DNA of 40,368 bases. Source: Candidatus Gastranaerophilales bacterium. Lineage in GTDB: Bacteria > Cyanobacteriota > Vampirovibrionia > Gastranaerophilales > Gastranaerophilaceae. This document shows, one piece after another, positions 13,063 to 23,921 of the stretch. The notes beneath the pieces were generated by a model. That model was not told where the DNA came from. It was given only the letters and a program-made list of their open reading frames with translations, and did not search any database. The stretch is taken from the NCBI GenBank assembly GCA_944326535.1, contig CALVEJ010000010.1:1-40368 (forward strand), given 5' to 3'. The translations under genes and the position numbers were made by a program. Each line of letters begins with the position of its first letter. Positions within the stretch are counted from its first letter, which is position 1.

Positions 13063-14973
13063 ATGGATATCTTTAAAAAGATAAAAGATTATGCCCGCAA
13101 GGTCAATGAAATAGAATACAGTATTTCAAGCAACAAGAAAGAGTTTATAGAAATTTATGAACGAAATCTTGCTCTTGAAAGAGAAATTGTACAGCGTACA
13201 CAAGAACTGGACCAGGCAAACAAAGCGTTTTTGACTTTAAAACATGTCTGGGAGCTTTTGAATTCTTCTGAACCGCTTTCTACAGTACTGCAAAAACTGG
13301 TAAACTCTCTTCATGGTGAAATGGGGTATATTAACAGCACAATTTTGCAGGTTTGTAATGATGAAAAAGGAAAGTATTATAAAGTAAAAGCATTCTCTGA
13401 AAGCCCGATATTTGCAAAACTTACGGAATATTTAAACCAGAAGAATATAAATATTCATGAATATCATCTCAAATATGACCCTCAAATGCTTATCACAAGG
13501 GCTATTGAGGAAAAGAATATTCTGTATAGCAATGATTACCTTAAGATAATAAACAATCTTTTGTATGATTTTAATGATGAGCAGATTGCTAGCATTAATA
13601 AACTTGGTGTAAGTAAAAATATAATCTGTATACCCCTGTTTCCCTCAAATGTTGCTTTTGGGGTAATGATGATTTTTTCTCCGAGAGAAGAAGTTACAGA
13701 CAAAGAACTAAATTTTTTGAGTCTTTTTGCAAATCAGGTAGAGATGGCTATCACTATTGCTAACCTCTTTGAAAACCTTAAAAAAGAGGCGGTTACGGAC
13801 TCTCTGACAGAATTGTACAACAGAAGATATTTCAATCAGGCAATTCAAAAAGAAGCAGAACGTGCCCAGCGTTTGCATCAGCCGTTTTCTATAATAAGTT
13901 TGGATTTGGATTATCTGAAAAAGATAAATGACACATATGGACACTTTTTTGGCGACCTTGCTATCAGGACAATTGCGGATATTTTGAAAAAAAATGCAAG
14001 ATCTATTGATGTTCCTGCCAGATTGGGGGGAGAAGAGTTCTCTGTCCTTCTTCCTGGTGTTGATTCTTCAGGTGCTATGATTGCTGCAGAGAGAATCAGA
14101 GCTGCAATTGAAGCTCAGGAACTTGATACAATAGGGCACATTACAGCAAGTGTGGGAGTGGGAACTTTCCCTGAACATTCTATAAAATTGGATGAACTGC
14201 TGGATTTAACTGATCAGGCAATGTATAAATCCAAAATAAACGGCAGAAACAGGGTTACTATGGCAAAAGCGATTGACAATGAAGCTGAATGGCAGGAAAT
14301 TGCATTCGGCGCATTTATGGATATTTTGACTAAACAAAAAATTCCGATACCTGACAAAATAGCAAAAGAAATTACATCAAAACTTAAGTCAATAAACTCA
14401 AACGAAACAAAATCGACACTTTTTTCGGTTGCAGATACACTGGCTCAAACCTATAATGCCCACTATAAAAGAGGACTGACAAAAGCCAAAGTGTCTATGG
14501 CAATTGAACTTGGCAGAAAAATGGAATTATCTAAAGAGGATATTGATAAACTAAAAATAGCAATGATGCTTTATGATATAGGCAAACTGCTTATTCCTGA
14601 AGAAATTTTGAACAAAAAAGAACCATTGACGGACGAAGAAAGACAGAAAATTAAAGAACATCCTCTTATTGCTGCTAGGACGATACTGCAGCCTATTGGC
14701 GGTGTTGCGGATATTGTTCCGATAATTGAGGCTCACCATGAAAATTGGGATGGTTCAGGATACCCGAACAAGCTCAGCGGCGATGATATTCCGGTTTCTT
14801 CCCAGATTATATTGATTGTTGATGCTTATTTTGCTTTAACTCAATCCAGACCATACCGTGTTGCCAGATCAAAAGATGAGGCAATTGAAATTATCAAACT
14901 TGAGTCGGGTAAAAAATGGAATGAAAAACTGGTTGAGCAGTTTGTGGATCTGTTAAATGAGTCAAAAAACTAA
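13063..14973 (+). CDS. GAF-GGDEF-HD-GYP signalling protein with degenerate HD site
   Basis: This 636-residue soluble protein begins with a coiled coil (20-60), followed by a GAF-type domain (60-235). The GGDEF domain (240-400) has the active-site form GGEEF (322-326) and an inhibitory RxxD site (R313-D316) exactly five residues before it. It should therefore make cyclic di-GMP and be product-inhibited. Residues 430-630 are HD-GYP-like with HPLIAART and HHENWDGSGYP intact, but the HD motif reads YDIGK (Y504-D505) and the earlier metal His is also replaced (GLTKAKV). Phosphodiesterase activity is therefore doubtful. The stop overlaps the next gene by 17 bp. Confidence 0.93.
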   Translation: MDIFKKIKDYARKVNEIEYSISSNKKEFIEIYERNLALEREIVQRTQELDQANKAFLTLKHVWELLNSSEPLSTVLQKLVNSLHGEMGYINSTILQVCNDEKGKYYKVKAFSESPIFAKLTEYLNQKNINIHEYHLKYDPQMLITRAIEEKNILYSNDYLKIINNLLYDFNDEQIASINKLGVSKNIICIPLFPSNVAFGVMMIFSPREEVTDKELNFLSLFANQVEMAITIANLFENLKKEAVTDSLTELYNRRYFNQAIQKEAERAQRLHQPFSIISLDLDYLKKINDTYGHFFGDLAIRTIADILKKNARSIDVPARLGGEEFSVLLPGVDSSGAMIAAERIRAAIEAQELDTIGHITASVGVGTFPEHSIKLDELLDLTDQAMYKSKINGRNRVTMAKAIDNEAEWQEIAFGAFMDILTKQKIPIPDKIAKEITSKLKSINSNETKSTLFSVADTLAQTYNAHYKRGLTKAKVSMAIELGRKMELSKEDIDKLKIAMMLYDIGKLLIPEEILNKKEPLTDEERQKIKEHPLIAARTILQPIGGVADIVPIIEAHHENWDGSGYPNKLSGDDIPVSSQIILIVDAYFALTQSRPYRVARSKDEAIEIIKLESGKKWNEKLVEQFVDLLNESKN

Positions 14974-15310
14974 TACTGATGAAATAGTAACAAAACTTTA
15001 TCACTGGTGTACTTCATACAAAGAACAGCCGTTGATCAAAGATACATCAAAACTCAAAAATACAAGATTTGATGCTTTTGTTGACAGTAATTTGTCTTCG
15101 CCTTTGTCTTTTACTGTTTTTGAACTTTCGGATAAGGGTGATTTGCTTATAGACAGACAGCAAAGAATTCTGGAAAGTCAGGCTGCATTCTTTTTGTTTG
15201 TAAATCCCAAAACAGGCTGGATATTTGCAATAAAAAATACGCTCGAAAACCAGAAAAAGCTGCTTGGCGGTGAGCGTATTCAAAATTTTAAAATAAAAAT
15301 CTGTGATTAA
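14957..15310 (+). CDS. Hypothetical protein overlapping the cyclic di-GMP gene
   Basis: The family is not recognised. It has 117 residues, no signal peptide and no membrane helix, with a mixed alpha/beta pattern; the central part (LSFTVFELSDKGDLLIDRQQ) and the part FFLFVNPKTGWIFAIKN look like beta strands. Its ATG lies 17 bp inside the end of the GGDEF/HD-GYP gene, so the two are probably co-translated and functionally linked. It could be a small partner of that protein, but nothing in the sequence proves it. Confidence 0.7.
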   Translation: MSQKTNTDEIVTKLYHWCTSYKEQPLIKDTSKLKNTRFDAFVDSNLSSPLSFTVFELSDKGDLLIDRQQRILESQAAFFLFVNPKTGWIFAIKNTLENQKKLLGGERIQNFKIKICD

Positions 15311-15779: not shown

Positions 15780-15983
15780 ATGAAGGAAAATGAATTGAAT
15801 ACAATTATGGGTGTAGTTTCAGACCCGGTTAAAAATGTATACGATATTACATCAAGAAAAAATCTTCAGGAAATTCAAAGAATTATCAGAATTTTCAAAA
15901 TTAATGAAGAGCAGAATATTAAAAACAAGAATTTTGCTATAAAAAATCTTGCAACTTTTAAACTTGTTTTGAGCAACAATTAG
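15780..15983 (+). CDS. Small basic hypothetical protein
   Basis: The family is not recognised. It has 67 residues, rich in Asn, Ile and Lys, probably helical, with no membrane segment. AGAGGA stands 8 bases before the ATG, which supports translation. Its last codon overlaps the stop of the converging coiled-coil gene by 4 bp. The upstream 200 bp are very AT-rich and may hold its promoter, but no clear boxes were chosen. Confidence 0.55.
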   Translation: MKENELNTIMGVVSDPVKNVYDITSRKNLQEIQRIIRIFKINEEQNIKNKNFAIKNLATFKLVLSNN

Positions 15984-18502
15984 TTTTCATCTGTATATTC
16001 ATCATCTTCATCAATGAAGTCAGTGATGATATCGACATTTTTTTCTATTTTTTTAAGCTGCTTTTCGATATTTGTAATCTTTTGTGCCAGCTTGTCATTT
16101 TCTGCAATCTTTTCATTAGCCATACTGACTTGTGCGGCAACATATTCCAAAAGTGATTTTATTTCTTTTGTTTCGTTTTGCTGTTCGACAAGTTTTTTCA
16201 GTCGTGTATCGGCATTTTCAATTCTTTCTGAGAGATTATTTTCGTCTTCTAAAAGCGTGCCTTTGATTTCATCAATTTCTGCTTTTATTTCTTCAAAAGA
16301 ACTGCTTGCTGTGTCAATCCATTCTGCAAGATACATAAAAGCTTCATTCAGAACTTTATCGGATTGCATCAATGATACTGTAGTTCTGTTAAGATTGTCT
16401 ATTTTCTTATCCAGATTACTCACAAAAGCTGAGTTATAGAACTCTTTGCTCTGTTTTTCAAATGATTTTATTAAAGAAGAGAAGTTTTCTATATTTGCTT
16501 TTAGTGTTTTGTTGATTTCATCTGATGAGAGAATCAGTTTATTTGTTCTTTTGCTGATGCTTGAAACATCTTCATTTAGGTTGGTAAATAAGGATTTTAC
16601 TTCTGCTATTTCTGCACTAAGCGGGCTGCTTTCAAGCTTTTCAAGTTTTGATTTAATCAGATTGAGTTTTGTTGTCAGGTCATTTCCTGCTTCAGTGTTT
16701 TGTTCATCTGTATTTACAAGAATTTTATGAAGATTTGTCAAATCAAGTCTGATTTTTGAAAGATCCGATTCTACATCAGGCAGCGTGTAGACATAATCCT
16801 TATCCTCTTTCAGTCCGCTTGTCAAAAGCTTGAAGCCCGAAATAAGTGTTTTTAGATCTTGATTTATATCAGTTTTTACAGCATTGTCGATTTCTTCCAG
16901 CAGTTTTAATATTTCGGTATCAGTACCGCCGGAAAGTTCTTGCAGCTTTTCTATTTCTTCTTTTATGTCTGAAATATTTGAAGAGATTTTTTCTTTTATA
17001 TCTTCGCTGCAGTTTAGTATATTTTCATTAATTTCATCTGCTTCTTCTTCAAAATTTATATTGTCTGCTATTTGTACAAGCTGTGTAACAAATTTTGTCT
17101 GAAGTGCATTCAGTGCGATATTAATTTGTTCTGTTTGTTCATTGAGTATAATTTCTGAAAGATCTTTTCTTAAATCTTCAATAGTTGTTGAAATTTCACT
17201 GATCTGGTTTGATGCAGCCATTGACTCTGTGTAAATTGTATCAGAGAGATTTCTTTTTAGGTTATCAATACTTGTATTGATTTGATTAATCTGCTCTGCA
17301 GCAGCGACACTTTCTGTAGAGATTGTATCTGTGATATCTTCTGTAATCTGGGATTGTATTGAATCAATTTTTTCGTTCAGTTGAGTTTTTAATGTATTAA
17401 TTTCTTCTGTAAATGTTTCTGTTTTGATAGCTGTATTTTTTACTTCAGAAACAGTATCTTTTATTGCCCAGATTTCTTCTTTCAGAACTTCCGTTCCCTG
17501 GAAGAACATTTTTTCCGTATAATTTTTGATATCTTGTATGTCACTAAAATCCAGTCTTTCCAGTAATTTTTGTTCAAGTTCCTGAATTAGCTCTTTGTTG
17601 TGATTTTTGATTTCTTCTTTGTTTTTTGCAGAATTTTCGAGAAGTTCTTCTTTTGTTGCTACATTTTTCAATGAATCAGAGATAAATACTGTTTTTGCAA
17701 GAACTTCGGCAACATCATCCTGCAAGTTTTTGAATTCTTCGTCATCAAAAATATTGCCAAGAACCTGTACAATTGTTGTGATATTATTATTTAAGACATC
17801 AATGTAAGAATCTGTTTCATGAATTTTGTTGATAATTCCGTCAACTTTTTCAGCAAGAAGGACTTTTGTATCCGCTTCATCAGCTTGAACTGTGTCAAGA
17901 AGTTCCTTCAGGCTGAGTGTAAGTTCGTTCAGCTCTTCAACTGTCTTTTTATTTTTATTTTCAATTGATTCATTGAGCTCTGTAATTAAGTTGATTTGTT
18001 TGTTAACATTTTCGTTGATAATTGTATTTTGTTCTTTAACAATAGCGAAATTTGATCTTGCTATTTCATTTGTTTCTTCCAGCGTTCCGAATTTTTCTAT
18101 ATGAGAAATTATTGAATTGAATGCTTCTTTTTGATTTTCGAGTTCTTCTGAGAAAAAGTGTATCTGGTTTTGAATTTTGTTAAATGCAGCAAGGAGTTCC
18201 GGGGTTTTTAAAGAATTGAGCAAGAGTTCGTTTATATTGTCAAATTCTCCTTTTATTGCATTAAATTTTCCGTCAACAATATTCTGGCGGTCTTGTATCA
18301 TATTTCTGATTTCAAGTGCAATCAGTCCTATTTTTTCAAAATTTTCACCGCCTGAAAAAACATCCATTTTTGTATTAATTTTTTCCAGTATCTGTGCGTA
18401 TGTAATACGGAAATTCTCATCGGAATTTTCTTTTTGTACTATTTTTTCGACGAGTGCATCTAATTTGTTTTGTATAATTTCTAAATAATTTATTTCTGAC
18501 AT
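15980..18502 (-). CDS. Long coiled-coil protein of unknown function
   Basis: This 840-residue, strongly acidic protein is almost wholly predicted coiled coil (Glu, Asn, Lys, Ile, Leu heptads). It has no signal peptide, membrane segment, Walker motif or other enzyme motif. An internal duplication of about 34 residues is seen near residues 400-460 (DTISTESVAAAEQINQI and DTIYTESMAASNQISEI). The tail is very acidic (FIDEDDEYTDEN). Such proteins act as filaments, spacers or cytoskeletal scaffolds. The lack of an ATPase head argues against SMC or RecN. It lies 94 bp downstream of pgi in the same direction and may share its transcript. Only weak GA-rich sequence precedes the start. Confidence 0.85.
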   Translation of the reverse strand: MSEINYLEIIQNKLDALVEKIVQKENSDENFRITYAQILEKINTKMDVFSGGENFEKIGLIALEIRNMIQDRQNIVDGKFNAIKGEFDNINELLLNSLKTPELLAAFNKIQNQIHFFSEELENQKEAFNSIISHIEKFGTLEETNEIARSNFAIVKEQNTIINENVNKQINLITELNESIENKNKKTVEELNELTLSLKELLDTVQADEADTKVLLAEKVDGIINKIHETDSYIDVLNNNITTIVQVLGNIFDDEEFKNLQDDVAEVLAKTVFISDSLKNVATKEELLENSAKNKEEIKNHNKELIQELEQKLLERLDFSDIQDIKNYTEKMFFQGTEVLKEEIWAIKDTVSEVKNTAIKTETFTEEINTLKTQLNEKIDSIQSQITEDITDTISTESVAAAEQINQINTSIDNLKRNLSDTIYTESMAASNQISEISTTIEDLRKDLSEIILNEQTEQINIALNALQTKFVTQLVQIADNINFEEEADEINENILNCSEDIKEKISSNISDIKEEIEKLQELSGGTDTEILKLLEEIDNAVKTDINQDLKTLISGFKLLTSGLKEDKDYVYTLPDVESDLSKIRLDLTNLHKILVNTDEQNTEAGNDLTTKLNLIKSKLEKLESSPLSAEIAEVKSLFTNLNEDVSSISKRTNKLILSSDEINKTLKANIENFSSLIKSFEKQSKEFYNSAFVSNLDKKIDNLNRTTVSLMQSDKVLNEAFMYLAEWIDTASSSFEEIKAEIDEIKGTLLEDENNLSERIENADTRLKKLVEQQNETKEIKSLLEYVAAQVSMANEKIAENDKLAQKITNIEKQLKKIEKNVDIITDFIDEDDEYTDEN

Positions 18503-20245: not shown

Positions 20246-21319
20246 ATGTATTTTGACGATTACAGCACAAGTTTTCAAAGTTTATACGGTCCGATGTATA
20301 ATTTGCAAACAAATTATTCTGCATATTCTATGCCATATGCCGGCGGTGCTTATGCAGGCGGTATGTTTCCATATATGGGCGGTGCTTACAACGGCTCATT
20401 GACAAATGTACCTGTCGGACAGTTTGGCGCTGATCAATTGGTCAGAAATGATGAAACCAGAAATAATTATTATGCAGCTCCGATAGCTCCTCATAAGAAA
20501 AAAGATGAGCTGCCGACAATCCTCGGAATAATTGGTACTGCATTGGGTACTGCCGCTATGGCATTGGCTTTGGCTAAGGGCAGAGGTAAAAAGGTTCCAA
20601 AACCTGTACCTCCGAAACCTCCGGTACCTCCAACACCGGTACCTCCAAAACCGCTACCGCCAACACCGGTACCACCGAAACCGGTGCCACCAACTCCGGT
20701 ACCTCCAACACCGGTACCTCCAACACCGGTACCTCCAACTCCAGTACCACCGAAACCGGTGCCACCAACTCCGGTGCCGCCAACCATTTCCGGCTATTTG
20801 CCTGCGGCAACAACATCTAGCGTAAAAGCTTTGCCTGCAGCAACTACTCCGGTAAAGGGATTGCTTCCGGCACATACTCCGTCAGCAACTACATCTAGTG
20901 TAAACTACGGTTCAACAGTTATACTTCCGTCTTCAGGATCTGTATACAATATGCCGGCTGGTACTACAAAAGTTGCTGGTGCTCTTCCTCAAACGACAAC
21001 ACCTGTAGCAGGTTTACTTCCGGCGCATACTCCGGCAACTCCAGTAAATACTCAAACACCGGCTTTGCCTCCAATAGGTGATCTTGTATACGGAACAAAA
21101 AACAGATTTCCTGGTGTAACAAATTATCAAAACTTTGGTGATGATTTGCTCACAAAAATAAACAGTGATTATTCTGTATTGAAACATCCTGAAAAACTTA
21201 ATGGTGAAATTGTATGGACAACACATACTCCCAAAACATACAGCGATGCCCACAGCATTGGCGCTAATGCAAAAGGCGCAGATAAACTGGCTGCATTGTA
21301 TGAATCATTACAGAAATAA
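20246..21319 (+). CDS. Proline-rich single-pass membrane protein of unknown function
   Basis: This 357-residue protein has three parts. Residues 1-85 are Tyr/Gly/Ala-rich and low complexity (AGGAYAGGMFPYMGGAY). One membrane helix lies at about 90-110 (Ile/Gly/Ala-rich), followed by KGRGKK. Residues 117-180 are a PPTPV/PPKPV repeat. The rest holds repeats of LPAATT and GLLPAHTP and a folded-looking end from about residue 285 (FPGVTNYQNFGDDLLTKIN). Lys/Arg after the helix suggests that the proline-rich part may be cytoplasmic, by the positive-inside rule. TonB also has a Pro-rich stalk, but the TonB C-terminal domain is not seen. GGAG stands before the ATG, and a strong terminator follows. Confidence 0.75.
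   Translation: MYFDDYSTSFQSLYGPMYNLQTNYSAYSMPYAGGAYAGGMFPYMGGAYNGSLTNVPVGQFGADQLVRNDETRNNYYAAPIAPHKKKDELPTILGIIGTALGTAAMALALAKGRGKKVPKPVPPKPPVPPTPVPPKPLPPTPVPPKPVPPTPVPPTPVPPTPVPPTPVPPKPVPPTPVPPTISGYLPAATTSSVKALPAATTPVKGLLPAHTPSATTSSVNYGSTVILPSSGSVYNMPAGTTKVAGALPQTTTPVAGLLPAHTPATPVNTQTPALPPIGDLVYGTKNRFPGVTNYQNFGDDLLTKINSDYSVLKHPEKLNGEIVWTTHTPKTYSDAHSIGANAKGADKLAALYESLQK
20594..20785 (+). repeat. Pro-rich coding repeat (15-bp units, PPTPV/PPKPV)
   Basis: Tandem units such as CCAACACCGGTACCT encode five residues each, about a dozen in a row with T/K alternation. The GC content is far above that of the surroundings. The antisense frame gives a Gly-Thr-Gly-Val shadow without gene support. Confidence 0.85.
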
Positions 21320-21476: not shown

Positions 21477-22847
21477 TTAGCTTGCAGCTTTTGCTTTCTT
21501 TTTGTTTTCAATTCTTTCACTGATACTGTTTGCAAGAGGTGTTGCAAATACCGGTGAAATGAATCTGTATATCATTGCAAAAATCATCAGGGATTTTGCG
21601 ATTTTGAAACCGTTCATCAATGTAGACAATTTTGTATCGTTGTTTGATACAAGTTTTATTGCATTTGTCATACTTTGTTTGTTGAAAATTTCTGTCAACT
21701 GCTTGCTGTTAGCTTTTGATTTCATGAAAATTTCTTTTGCTTTATCCGCTTTATCAATTGTTATTCCTTTAGCATCAGTAAGCTTCTTAGGCAGTTGTGA
21801 GATTTGTTCAAATATATTTTTTACAGTATCATCAGCACTGCCGGTTTTTACAAGCTTTTTGAGTTTTGCTTCTATACCTTTGTTGTATTCAAACATTTTG
21901 TCAAGAATACCGAAAGATTCGTTTAATTGGTTTACTCTTAAAACATTTTCAAGATAAGATTTGTTTCCTTTTAACTTTTCAAAGACTCTTTTTGTTTCTT
22001 TATCTGTAATTGCTGATAAGTCAACTGTTTCAATATATTTTGAACCGAGATCTTTGTAAACATCTCTGAGTGTTTTGCTGGAGTTTATTTCATTAAGGAA
22101 CAGTTCTTTCGCTTTTTCTATTTTTCCGATTTGAGCACCGTTTTTAGATACGTTTGTTTCTTGTAGTTTTTCAATTTTTTCAATCAGATTTTTTGCAATA
22201 TTATCTGTATCTTGTTTATTTAATAAGTTCTTTAAATGTTCTTCTGTATTTGTATTTGATTTAAAAAGCTCATCTGTGACAAACTTGTTAATCTTTTCTA
22301 TAACAGCTTTTTCTCCTTTTATGTCATTTGCTCTTCGTTTTACAGTCTGGAGGTATTCCGGGTTGTCATAGAGTTTCACAAACATTTCTCTTGTTTTTGG
22401 ATCAGAAATATTTGCAATATCAAATTTTTCTTTGAAATTGGCGATGTGTTTGTCAAGATAATTGTCCAGTGTGTATGCACCAATTGTAGATAGTGCGCAA
22501 ACAGCTCCCTGGTTTACAATCAACGGCATTTTTTGATCTTTTTCAATCTTTTTGGATCTTGCTGTATCAAGCATATAAAAACTTGAAAGCACCACGCCGA
22601 CAAATGCTGCCAAATGCTGCTGGTAGTTTCTGTCTTTCAAAAAGTCTACAAGTTTTTGAACAGGTCTTGTTGCACCAAGTGCACCCATTCCTTTTGCCAG
22701 TCCGTCAGTTAATCCGTTCATAGGATTGATGCCGAATGACACTTGATCCTGCTTTAAAGGAGTGGATTTCATAGTGTTTTTTCTGTTTTTTAACAGATTA
22801 TTTTGAGAATATGTATTATATTTTGAAGTATATGGTTGTATCTGCAT
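21477..22847 (-). CDS. FG-motif membrane protein with inserted helical domain
   Basis: The family is not named by me. This 456-residue protein has an N-terminal tail that is Asn/Lys/Tyr-rich and unstructured, then a VSFG motif (36-39). A membrane hairpin follows at about 79-94 and 108-126. Residues 135-400 form a Lys/Glu/Leu-rich helical region, and a further hydrophobic segment lies near 415-437 (SLMIFAMIYRFISPVF). The VSFG tail, the hairpin and the last segment line up in order and spacing with the next upstream gene product, so the two are probable paralogues; the helical region is the extra piece. Its ATG overlaps the upstream stop (TAATG), so the pair is translationally coupled. Confidence 0.78.
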   Translation of the reverse strand: MQIQPYTSKYNTYSQNNLLKNRKNTMKSTPLKQDQVSFGINPMNGLTDGLAKGMGALGATRPVQKLVDFLKDRNYQQHLAAFVGVVLSSFYMLDTARSKKIEKDQKMPLIVNQGAVCALSTIGAYTLDNYLDKHIANFKEKFDIANISDPKTREMFVKLYDNPEYLQTVKRRANDIKGEKAVIEKINKFVTDELFKSNTNTEEHLKNLLNKQDTDNIAKNLIEKIEKLQETNVSKNGAQIGKIEKAKELFLNEINSSKTLRDVYKDLGSKYIETVDLSAITDKETKRVFEKLKGNKSYLENVLRVNQLNESFGILDKMFEYNKGIEAKLKKLVKTGSADDTVKNIFEQISQLPKKLTDAKGITIDKADKAKEIFMKSKANSKQLTEIFNKQSMTNAIKLVSNNDTKLSTLMNGFKIAKSLMIFAMIYRFISPVFATPLANSISERIENKKKAKAAS

Positions 22848-23716
22848 TATTTCATCACTCCTGTAAAGTTTTGGAATACTTTATTTGCATTTGCACTGCT
22901 GCTGTTATTTTTAAAGTTTATAAATGCAAATTTGTATGTGGGGTCATTTTTTAATTCTTCTGTGGTAGCCGGAGGTGTTTTTGATCCGAATATTTTGTTC
23001 AATATGTATTTATCAATATAAGGAATCATTGCAATTGTAATAGCGGATCTGATAGAGGCTGTGATAACCTGAGGAACATAGTTGCATAGCATTGTGAATG
23101 TTTGAAATCTCTTTGATGCCGCCATTTTCTTTGTTCCGTTATAAGTAAAGAATTTTTCCGCCTTTTGTGCATATTTTTCAGGGTTGCTTCTGATTTTGTC
23201 CAATCCTTTTTTGATAGGTGAATATATAACAACTGCAAAGACATATCCTATAATGCCTGATGAGATTGAGTGAGAAGCTGCTTTTTTGTTTTTCTCTTTG
23301 TTGTGCTCGTTAGCCTGAGCCATAATTGCTGCAGGTCTCAATCCGCAGGTAATCAATAATGCAAACAGTGCGTCAAAGACTGTTTGGTTTGAATCTGCCA
23401 TTTTTAAAAATTTATGAAGCAAATTGCTTTGTGCAAATTTCCAGGTATTTGTGGATTTAATACCATTTGAAACGGCAGAAACAGGAAGACCGCCAAAATT
23501 CACATTTTTGGCGGTCTTCTTATTCATTGTCACATTATTATTCTTTCTAATCACAGCACAGTCAAGAACATCATAGTCTTTCATGTCTGAACACATCTTG
23601 AACCCAGAATGCTCCTGTCCCAAATGGTACGCTTGTACGGAATTTGTTTCCGAACCAAATGACGATGCGTTTTGCAAACGTCCGATAGGTGAGTGTGTTG
23701 TTTGTATTTTCAGCAT
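22847..23716 (-). CDS. FG-motif membrane protein, coupled to the downstream paralogue
   Basis: This 289-residue protein is of unrecognised family. The tail (1-70) is low in structure, VNFGG is at 72-76, a membrane hairpin lies at about 113-131 and 152-168, and a further hydrophobic segment at about 212-235 precedes a polar end. The frame can be extended to 23800, but the ATG at 23716 has an AGAAG before it and avoids a likely promoter at about 23800, so it is preferred. It shares layout with the following gene (KFLK before the hairpin, a KEKNKK linker between the two helices, IPYIDKYI at the last segment) and overlaps it as TAATG. This suggests that the two work as a membrane complex. Confidence 0.75.
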   Translation of the reverse strand: MLKIQTTHSPIGRLQNASSFGSETNSVQAYHLGQEHSGFKMCSDMKDYDVLDCAVIRKNNNVTMNKKTAKNVNFGGLPVSAVSNGIKSTNTWKFAQSNLLHKFLKMADSNQTVFDALFALLITCGLRPAAIMAQANEHNKEKNKKAASHSISSGIIGYVFAVVIYSPIKKGLDKIRSNPEKYAQKAEKFFTYNGTKKMAASKRFQTFTMLCNYVPQVITASIRSAITIAMIPYIDKYILNKIFGSKTPPATTEELKNDPTYKFAFINFKNNSSSANANKVFQNFTGVMK

Positions 23717-23921
23717 AGTCTTCTTTTCTTTTAAACTTGGGTGATTACTTAAATTCTTCACACTTGGTAAAAGTTGAAAGATTTTATTATTTGCTAGCAT
23801 AACATATAATGTTTACAATTCAATACAAAATTTGTACCAGAAATTTTGAGCATGGTTTAAAAACCAGTATAATTAGTGTATTTTAGACAACAATTATTTT
23901 TTAGTAAAACTTAACATTTTT

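Follow-up and report, generated by a model that had tools for sequence, protein, structure and literature searches.

A pair of open reading frames on the minus strand of a Candidatus Gastranaerophilales genome encodes two proteins of no obvious family whose genes overlap by a single nucleotide, and the question that they raise is what the two products are to each other and why their genes are held together. In the window, by which we mean the whole stretch of 40,368 nt that was analysed, the upstream gene (P0002, 289 aa) occupies 22847–23716 (−) and the downstream gene (P0001, 456 aa) 21477–22847 (−), and the stop of the first and the start of the second share the sequence TAATG at 22845–22849 (−), as had been read from the DNA in the preliminary description. 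A longer version of P0002 starting at an ATG at 23800 is present; orthologues align from 23716, supporting the ATG at that position.

The preliminary description also knew of no named family for either protein, and this holds for the Pfam, NCBIfam and PHROGs libraries that were searched. Neither protein matches a Pfam or NCBIfam family above its curated cut-off, nor do the single-chain (B and C) and paired (D and E) relatives described below match any family at that level, and in PHROGs the search yielded just two weak matches (E = 0.016 and 0.044), both to families without an assigned function. When PDB sequences were searched with a profile of the single-chain family, nothing came below E = 0.45. 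Three sub-cut-off Pfam matches, to NIP7 pre-PUA (0.0094), SelO (0.00064) and Prominin (0.0045), were judged to be chance similarities in helical stretches. In open-licence searches of the literature on Gastranaerophilales and Melainabacteria, we found no paper naming these proteins.

The nature of the pair is indicated by a 339-aa single-chain homologue encoded on contig C83 of the same genome, the N-terminal half of which resembles the upstream protein and the C-terminal half the downstream protein, in that order. Comparison with hhalign gives E = 1.6e-15 for the upstream family against the N-terminal half and 3.5e-19 for the downstream family against the C-terminal half, demonstrating the homology of each gene to its own half, which we refer to as N-type and C-type, respectively. 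Since close paralogues carry this module as a single chain, the pair can be regarded as the split form of one protein. In a sample of 23 genomes of the genus, the split pair was found in 22, a fusion of 408–490 aa (B) in 17 and a fusion of ~340 aa (C, 331–352 aa) in all 23; within this sample, the C copy of one genome (G017) is cut by the contig end and the downstream gene of another (G001) is cut to 128 aa by an in-frame stop. In this last gene (L031:1486–1872) the homology continues past the stop, so that either the copy is broken or the assembly is at fault here.

When family C was used to search 289 genomes of the class, 184 of them gave a match. Our own count by kinship places these in 181 of the 188 genomes of the same family and in 1 of 1 and 2 of 2 genomes of two other families of the order, with 0 of 2 in a fourth family of the order and, among the matches listed, 0 of the 96 sampled genomes outside it. 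All of the homologues that these sequence searches found lie in the one order, Gastranaerophilales. Genomes with weak matches have mostly split pairs and a few fusions, and in one of the other families (G206) the C-type gene is itself split, again at TAATG. A tree of 100 loci, left when near-copies had been removed from 119, demonstrates that the switch between split and fused forms is recurrent: a minimum of six changes is needed, four of which are forced by supported (starred) branches, several long branches making the finer placements unsure.

The overlap of the two genes is likewise conserved. All 44 split homologous loci examined, some of which are close relatives, have overlapping genes when starts are taken as the first ATG, and exactly the same 1-nt overlap as in the window occurs in 32; the others overlap by 10 nt (five loci), 14 nt (three), 4 nt (two), 11 nt (one) and 53 nt (one), the last being probably a start-call error, given the rule by which starts were assigned. 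The coupling of the two genes proposed earlier is thereby strongly supported. An AGGAG at 22858–22862 (−), inside the last codons of the upstream gene, resembles a Shine–Dalgarno sequence and may serve the downstream gene as one, and a similar purine-rich stretch precedes most of the downstream starts in the 44 loci. In comparing these sequences we also observed that this ribosome-site-like stretch codes for the C-terminal FTG conserved in the upstream protein (F(T/K)G across the split loci), and a causal link between the two conserved features may be inferred.

We consider that the pair most probably represents two obligate subunits, one N-type and one C-type, of a single heterodimeric membrane complex, with a probability that we would put at about 0.68. 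It is the combination of split/fused switching (at least four changes) and an overlap at every one of the 44 split loci that points to an obligate heterodimer. Under this scheme the two subunits would be made in matched amounts by termination–reinitiation at TAATG, and we infer that they would then form the heterodimer, insert into the membrane and dock through a short SFxG-type motif to a shared partner.

Each half would be built from a flexible stretch carrying an SFxG-type motif followed by three hydrophobic segments with a Lys-rich loop in the hairpin. In the upstream protein, the segments lie at 23324–23380, 23213–23269 and 23015–23071 (all −), with mean hydropathies of 1.75, 1.48 and 1.31; in the downstream protein, they lie at 22560–22616, 22467–22523 and 21534–21590 (all −), with values of 1.21, 1.20 and 1.77, the last including YRFISPVFATPL. 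The Lys/Glu-rich hairpin linker and the third hydrophobic segment with a Pro, both described from the sequence at the outset, are present in both proteins. The membrane character assumed for them is plausible but modest: at the usual hydropathy cut-off of 1.6, the mean number of segments is 1.27 in 22 upstream and 0.91 in 22 downstream orthologues, rising to 2.68 and 1.95, respectively, at a cut-off of 1.2. Pro, Lys and Arg residues are conserved in or beside the segments. The summed Lys and Arg of alternate loops in family C are nearly equal (25.7 versus 25.3), so that the loop charges give no orientation.

The downstream protein had been credited with about 230 extra residues; we find ~245, between segments 2 and 3, the position at which the downstream half would carry a soluble helical domain of variable size. 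Both the sequence and the predicted model indicate that these residues form a soluble domain that has been duplicated in tandem. Copy 1 (residues about 147–264, 22056–22409 (−)) and copy 2 (residues about 280–388, 21684–22010 (−)) of the window protein share 36 identities in 120 positions (blastp, E = 4e-18), and the model repeats the same order of secondary structure twice within the insert. The insert is duplicated in three of the 22 downstream orthologues (G000, G014 and G006), is present as one copy in most and is absent from family C. Structure prediction was of use for one of the two proteins: the upstream model has a pLDDT of 33 and is unusable, whereas the downstream model is fair in its soluble part only. 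Comparison of the downstream model with PDB structures gave nothing beyond common helical arrangements, the best match (Z = 5.2 over 102 residues at 6.1 Å) falling in a low-confidence part.

Are the two subunits themselves related? It had been proposed that they are paralogues whose hairpin regions align by eye without gaps, and this we could not establish. The first of the two anchors quoted, KLVDFLKD with KFLKMADS, requires an offset of 37 and the second, YLDKHI with GLDKI, an offset of 41, a shift of four residues that makes a single gapless alignment impossible. The best gapless BLOSUM62 score of residues 60–145 at any offset is −16, a value equalled or bettered by 227 of 500 shuffles (the reversed segment scores 1); BLASTP between the window proteins aligns them elsewhere than by eye, at E = 0.089, hhalign of the upstream against the downstream protein gives E = 0.25, and deeper profiles do not change the outcome. 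Direct paralogy of the window proteins is not established by these comparisons, each of them matching a different half of the single-chain homologue. An older relationship between the halves is retained as a rival explanation because of what is seen in one of the further families.

These families came to light in searches with the profiles of the halves, which turned up more coupled pairs in the samples taken from the window's own genome and from a second genome, G018. Pair D (L119 and L201) is coupled at 22 of 22 loci, at spacings of −8 to +2 nt with 14 at −1, and pair E (L215 and others) lies within −7 to +3 nt at 21 of 21, these loci being picked from search hits (20 fetched for each pair) together with those in the samples. 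With hhalign, the N-type profile matches E1 (1.4e-5), E2 (8.4e-7) and D1 (4.3e-4), D1 matches E1 (9.2e-6) and the C-type profile matches D2 (3e-11); the two partners of E match each other at 3e-14 and are clear paralogues, a C-type partner being absent from E. In reversed-profile controls, comparisons of different families never exceeded a score of 20.8, the real ones giving 32.9–45.4; reversed self-comparisons, though, reached 33.5. On these profile links, there are two classes of unit, N-type and C-type, and E is composed of two N-type paralogues. In the window's own genome, a further overlapping membrane-like pair (L116:13260–14294 and 14260–15228) shares the order of parts seen in the window pair, with tails that read PSFG and PSFKG; the C-type profile matches its second protein no more than marginally (E = 0.41).

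It is conceivable, with the odds leaning somewhat against it, that the two halves are ancient paralogues of one three-segment unit, so that the fused form would be an internal duplication and the complex possibly an inverted-topology pair like the dual-topology transporters. The order of parts is identical in both halves, and half against half aligns in register with a score of 23.0 and E = 0.0059 using 95 rows (reversed 13.7, best of 40 column shuffles 19.1) and with a score of 22.6 and P = 0.0038 using about 125. The make-up of pair E, with blastp hits of its upstream partner in 19 of the 21 loci, the odd number of segments per unit and the lack of charge bias are all consistent with such an origin. 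However, eight of 100 shuffles that preserve hydropathy class reach the real score of half against half, and at a Neff of about 2 the match is confined to the SFKG stretch. The C-type profile matches E1 and E2 at just 0.01 and 0.012 and D1 matches D2 at 0.033, and the window sequences themselves do not match each other.

As to what the heterodimer does, the inserts are free to vary whereas the membrane part is conserved, and from this we would guess, tentatively and with the balance against it, that the complex is a membrane-anchored scaffold or receptor; it might then carry different soluble heads rather than transport a metabolite. The main rival to the scaffold is a small transporter or channel, which we regard as a little less probable again. 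Split and fused states of one small membrane unit are typical of small membrane transporter families (PMC3962082), and the Pro, Lys and Arg conserved within and beside the segments would suit such a function; against this, the hydrophobicity is weak, the soluble inserts are long and variable, and no transporter family was matched in the libraries searched.

The motif that first drew attention to the pair is VNFGG in the upstream protein (residues 72–76, 23489–23503 (−)) and VSFG in the downstream protein (residues 36–39, 22731–22742 (−)). The spacing of about 40 residues before the hairpin reported for V(S/N)FG was confirmed, there being 37 and 39 residues, respectively, to the first hydrophobic segment. 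The FG form is well kept in the upstream orthologues (18 of 22), which all have an SFxG-type motif (22 of 22), but not in the downstream ones (five of 22), where VSFG is a clade variant of SFK[GAR]. A wider pattern, [STNA]F[KSTGNRQ][GAR] within 60 residues before the unit, is demonstrably conserved, being found in 75 of 100 N-type and 83 of 100 C-type halves compared with 5.9 and 7.9 on shuffling; these counts cover 100 A, B and C type loci, which are related to one another and from which the pattern itself was derived. The VSFGI of the window's downstream protein is a variant that falls outside it. Pair E has the motif in one of 21 and none of 21 loci and pair D in 10 of 22 and two of 22; since it is nearly absent from E and patchy in D, the motif is not, on this evidence, an essential part of the unit. 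The SFKG codons TTT-AAA-GGA contain AAAGGA, and we may speculate that this might ease splitting of the gene at the linker.

The fused chains bear on the suggestion that the motif is a sorting or docking signal. Their second copy is internal (in family C it lies at around residue 180), and three to four copies are present in B; the sorting idea is thereby weakened, the motif is not simply an N-terminal sorting signal and docking fits better. Also, one clade of C has lost the N-terminal copy and retains the internal one. A sorting or export signal with the pair as its cargo is thus improbable, even with tail matches in other proteins to recommend it: the pattern [PVIL][STN]F[KRSTQG][GA] occurs in the first 70 residues 12 times among 308 ORFs of G018 (shuffle mean 1.9, reached in 0 of 200 shuffles), three times among 184 ORFs of G264 (1.1, 18 of 200) and not at all among 152 ORFs of G024, from outside the order (1.1). 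In the window's own genome, the count is four against 2.5 (376 ORFs, 48 of 200 shuffles), which is not significant, and the pattern was drawn from data that partly overlap those tested. Three of the 12 matches in G018 belong to this superfamily, and in one (L212:4648) the pattern seems to have arisen by chance in the interior of an enzyme. The narrower [VI][SN]FG gave a similarly divided result, exceeding its shuffle mean clearly in G018 (five against 1.0) and G264 (three against 0.7) but little in the own genome (two against 1.2).

Of ten tail or related proteins scanned against Pfam, one was a CheR methyltransferase and one a FliK-type protein, and the rest had no match above cut-off. The former is L213:14549–15343 of G018 (CheR, E = 9e-16), and L110:18636–19640 of the window's own genome is by eye another CheR-like methyltransferase; the tails read LSFKA in L110 and PNFKA in L213. 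In a 492-aa protein adjoining the single-chain homologue (L010:4087–5565), there are many near-identical repeats of the LKSIGGDANF type, and GFGS and VSFSA stand in its tail. We found no paper joining SFKG with a motif in the open-licence literature searched. A broader proposal, bold and rather unlikely, is that of a lineage-specific docking code in which SFxG, placed in flexible tails of unrelated soluble proteins and before each unit of the coupled membrane heterodimers, would be read by a shared partner gathering them at the membrane, with pairs A–E as the membrane side bearing exchangeable soluble heads.

That the pair instead yields a fused product by programmed −1 frameshifting, or is split by sequencing error, is most improbable: the overlap does place the second gene in the −1 frame, but the 44 split loci have no conserved slippery run ahead of it and do conserve the stop, the AGGAG-like stretch and the ATG, while overlap lengths vary and the 22 genus genomes agree.

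The surroundings of the pair are conserved in part. Four relatives share a synteny that takes in two dehydrogenase genes, a proline-rich ORF and others; it gives no functional hint. The proline-rich ORF (20246–21319 (+)), beside the pair, has PPTPVPPK repeats and keeps its position in the four relatives, where its sequence is poorly conserved, at 40–78% over parts. Further away, at 15980–18502 (−), is a gene for an 840-aa coiled-coil protein whose SMC/EzrA-like matches are weak and below cut-off.

Two anonymous hypothetical proteins thus become one module, present in almost all the genomes of its family that were sampled. Its repeated passage between one gene and two tightly coupled genes is a clear example of such switching and makes it a natural system in which to ask why cells couple subunits. 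If the docking code were true, this gut group, on which there has been little experimental work, would have a sorting or assembly system peculiar to its lineage.

The module can be compared with three kinds of known system. Short linear docking and sorting motifs lie in disordered tails. The SFxG motif is like them in its short conserved core within a flexible, unconserved stretch and in its presence on unrelated proteins; it differs in being also internal, and its partner is putative. Overlapping pairs coupled by termination–reinitiation have conserved same-strand overlaps of −1 and −4 nt, and genes for subunits of heteromeric complexes show an excess of short overlaps (PMC10666635); a short same-strand overlap is kept at all of the split loci here, with the difference that the same pair is also found fused and that its protein family is unnamed. 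A further likeness is to DUF606, YdgE/YdgF, SMR and Fluc (PMC3962082), where a small membrane unit likewise occurs both in fused form and as two genes that adjoin or overlap. In contrast to the four transmembrane helices per unit of DUF606, SMR and Fluc, there are three hydrophobic peaks here, some of them weak, and the present proteins have soluble inserts, the SFxG motif and halves that are not clearly homologous; they have no profile match above cut-off to SMR, DUF606 or Fluc (CrcB), and the loop charges of family C show no bias that would tell a parallel from an antiparallel arrangement. The paired and fused small membrane unit is of a kind known from that source, and its family, insert and motif are new to the libraries searched.
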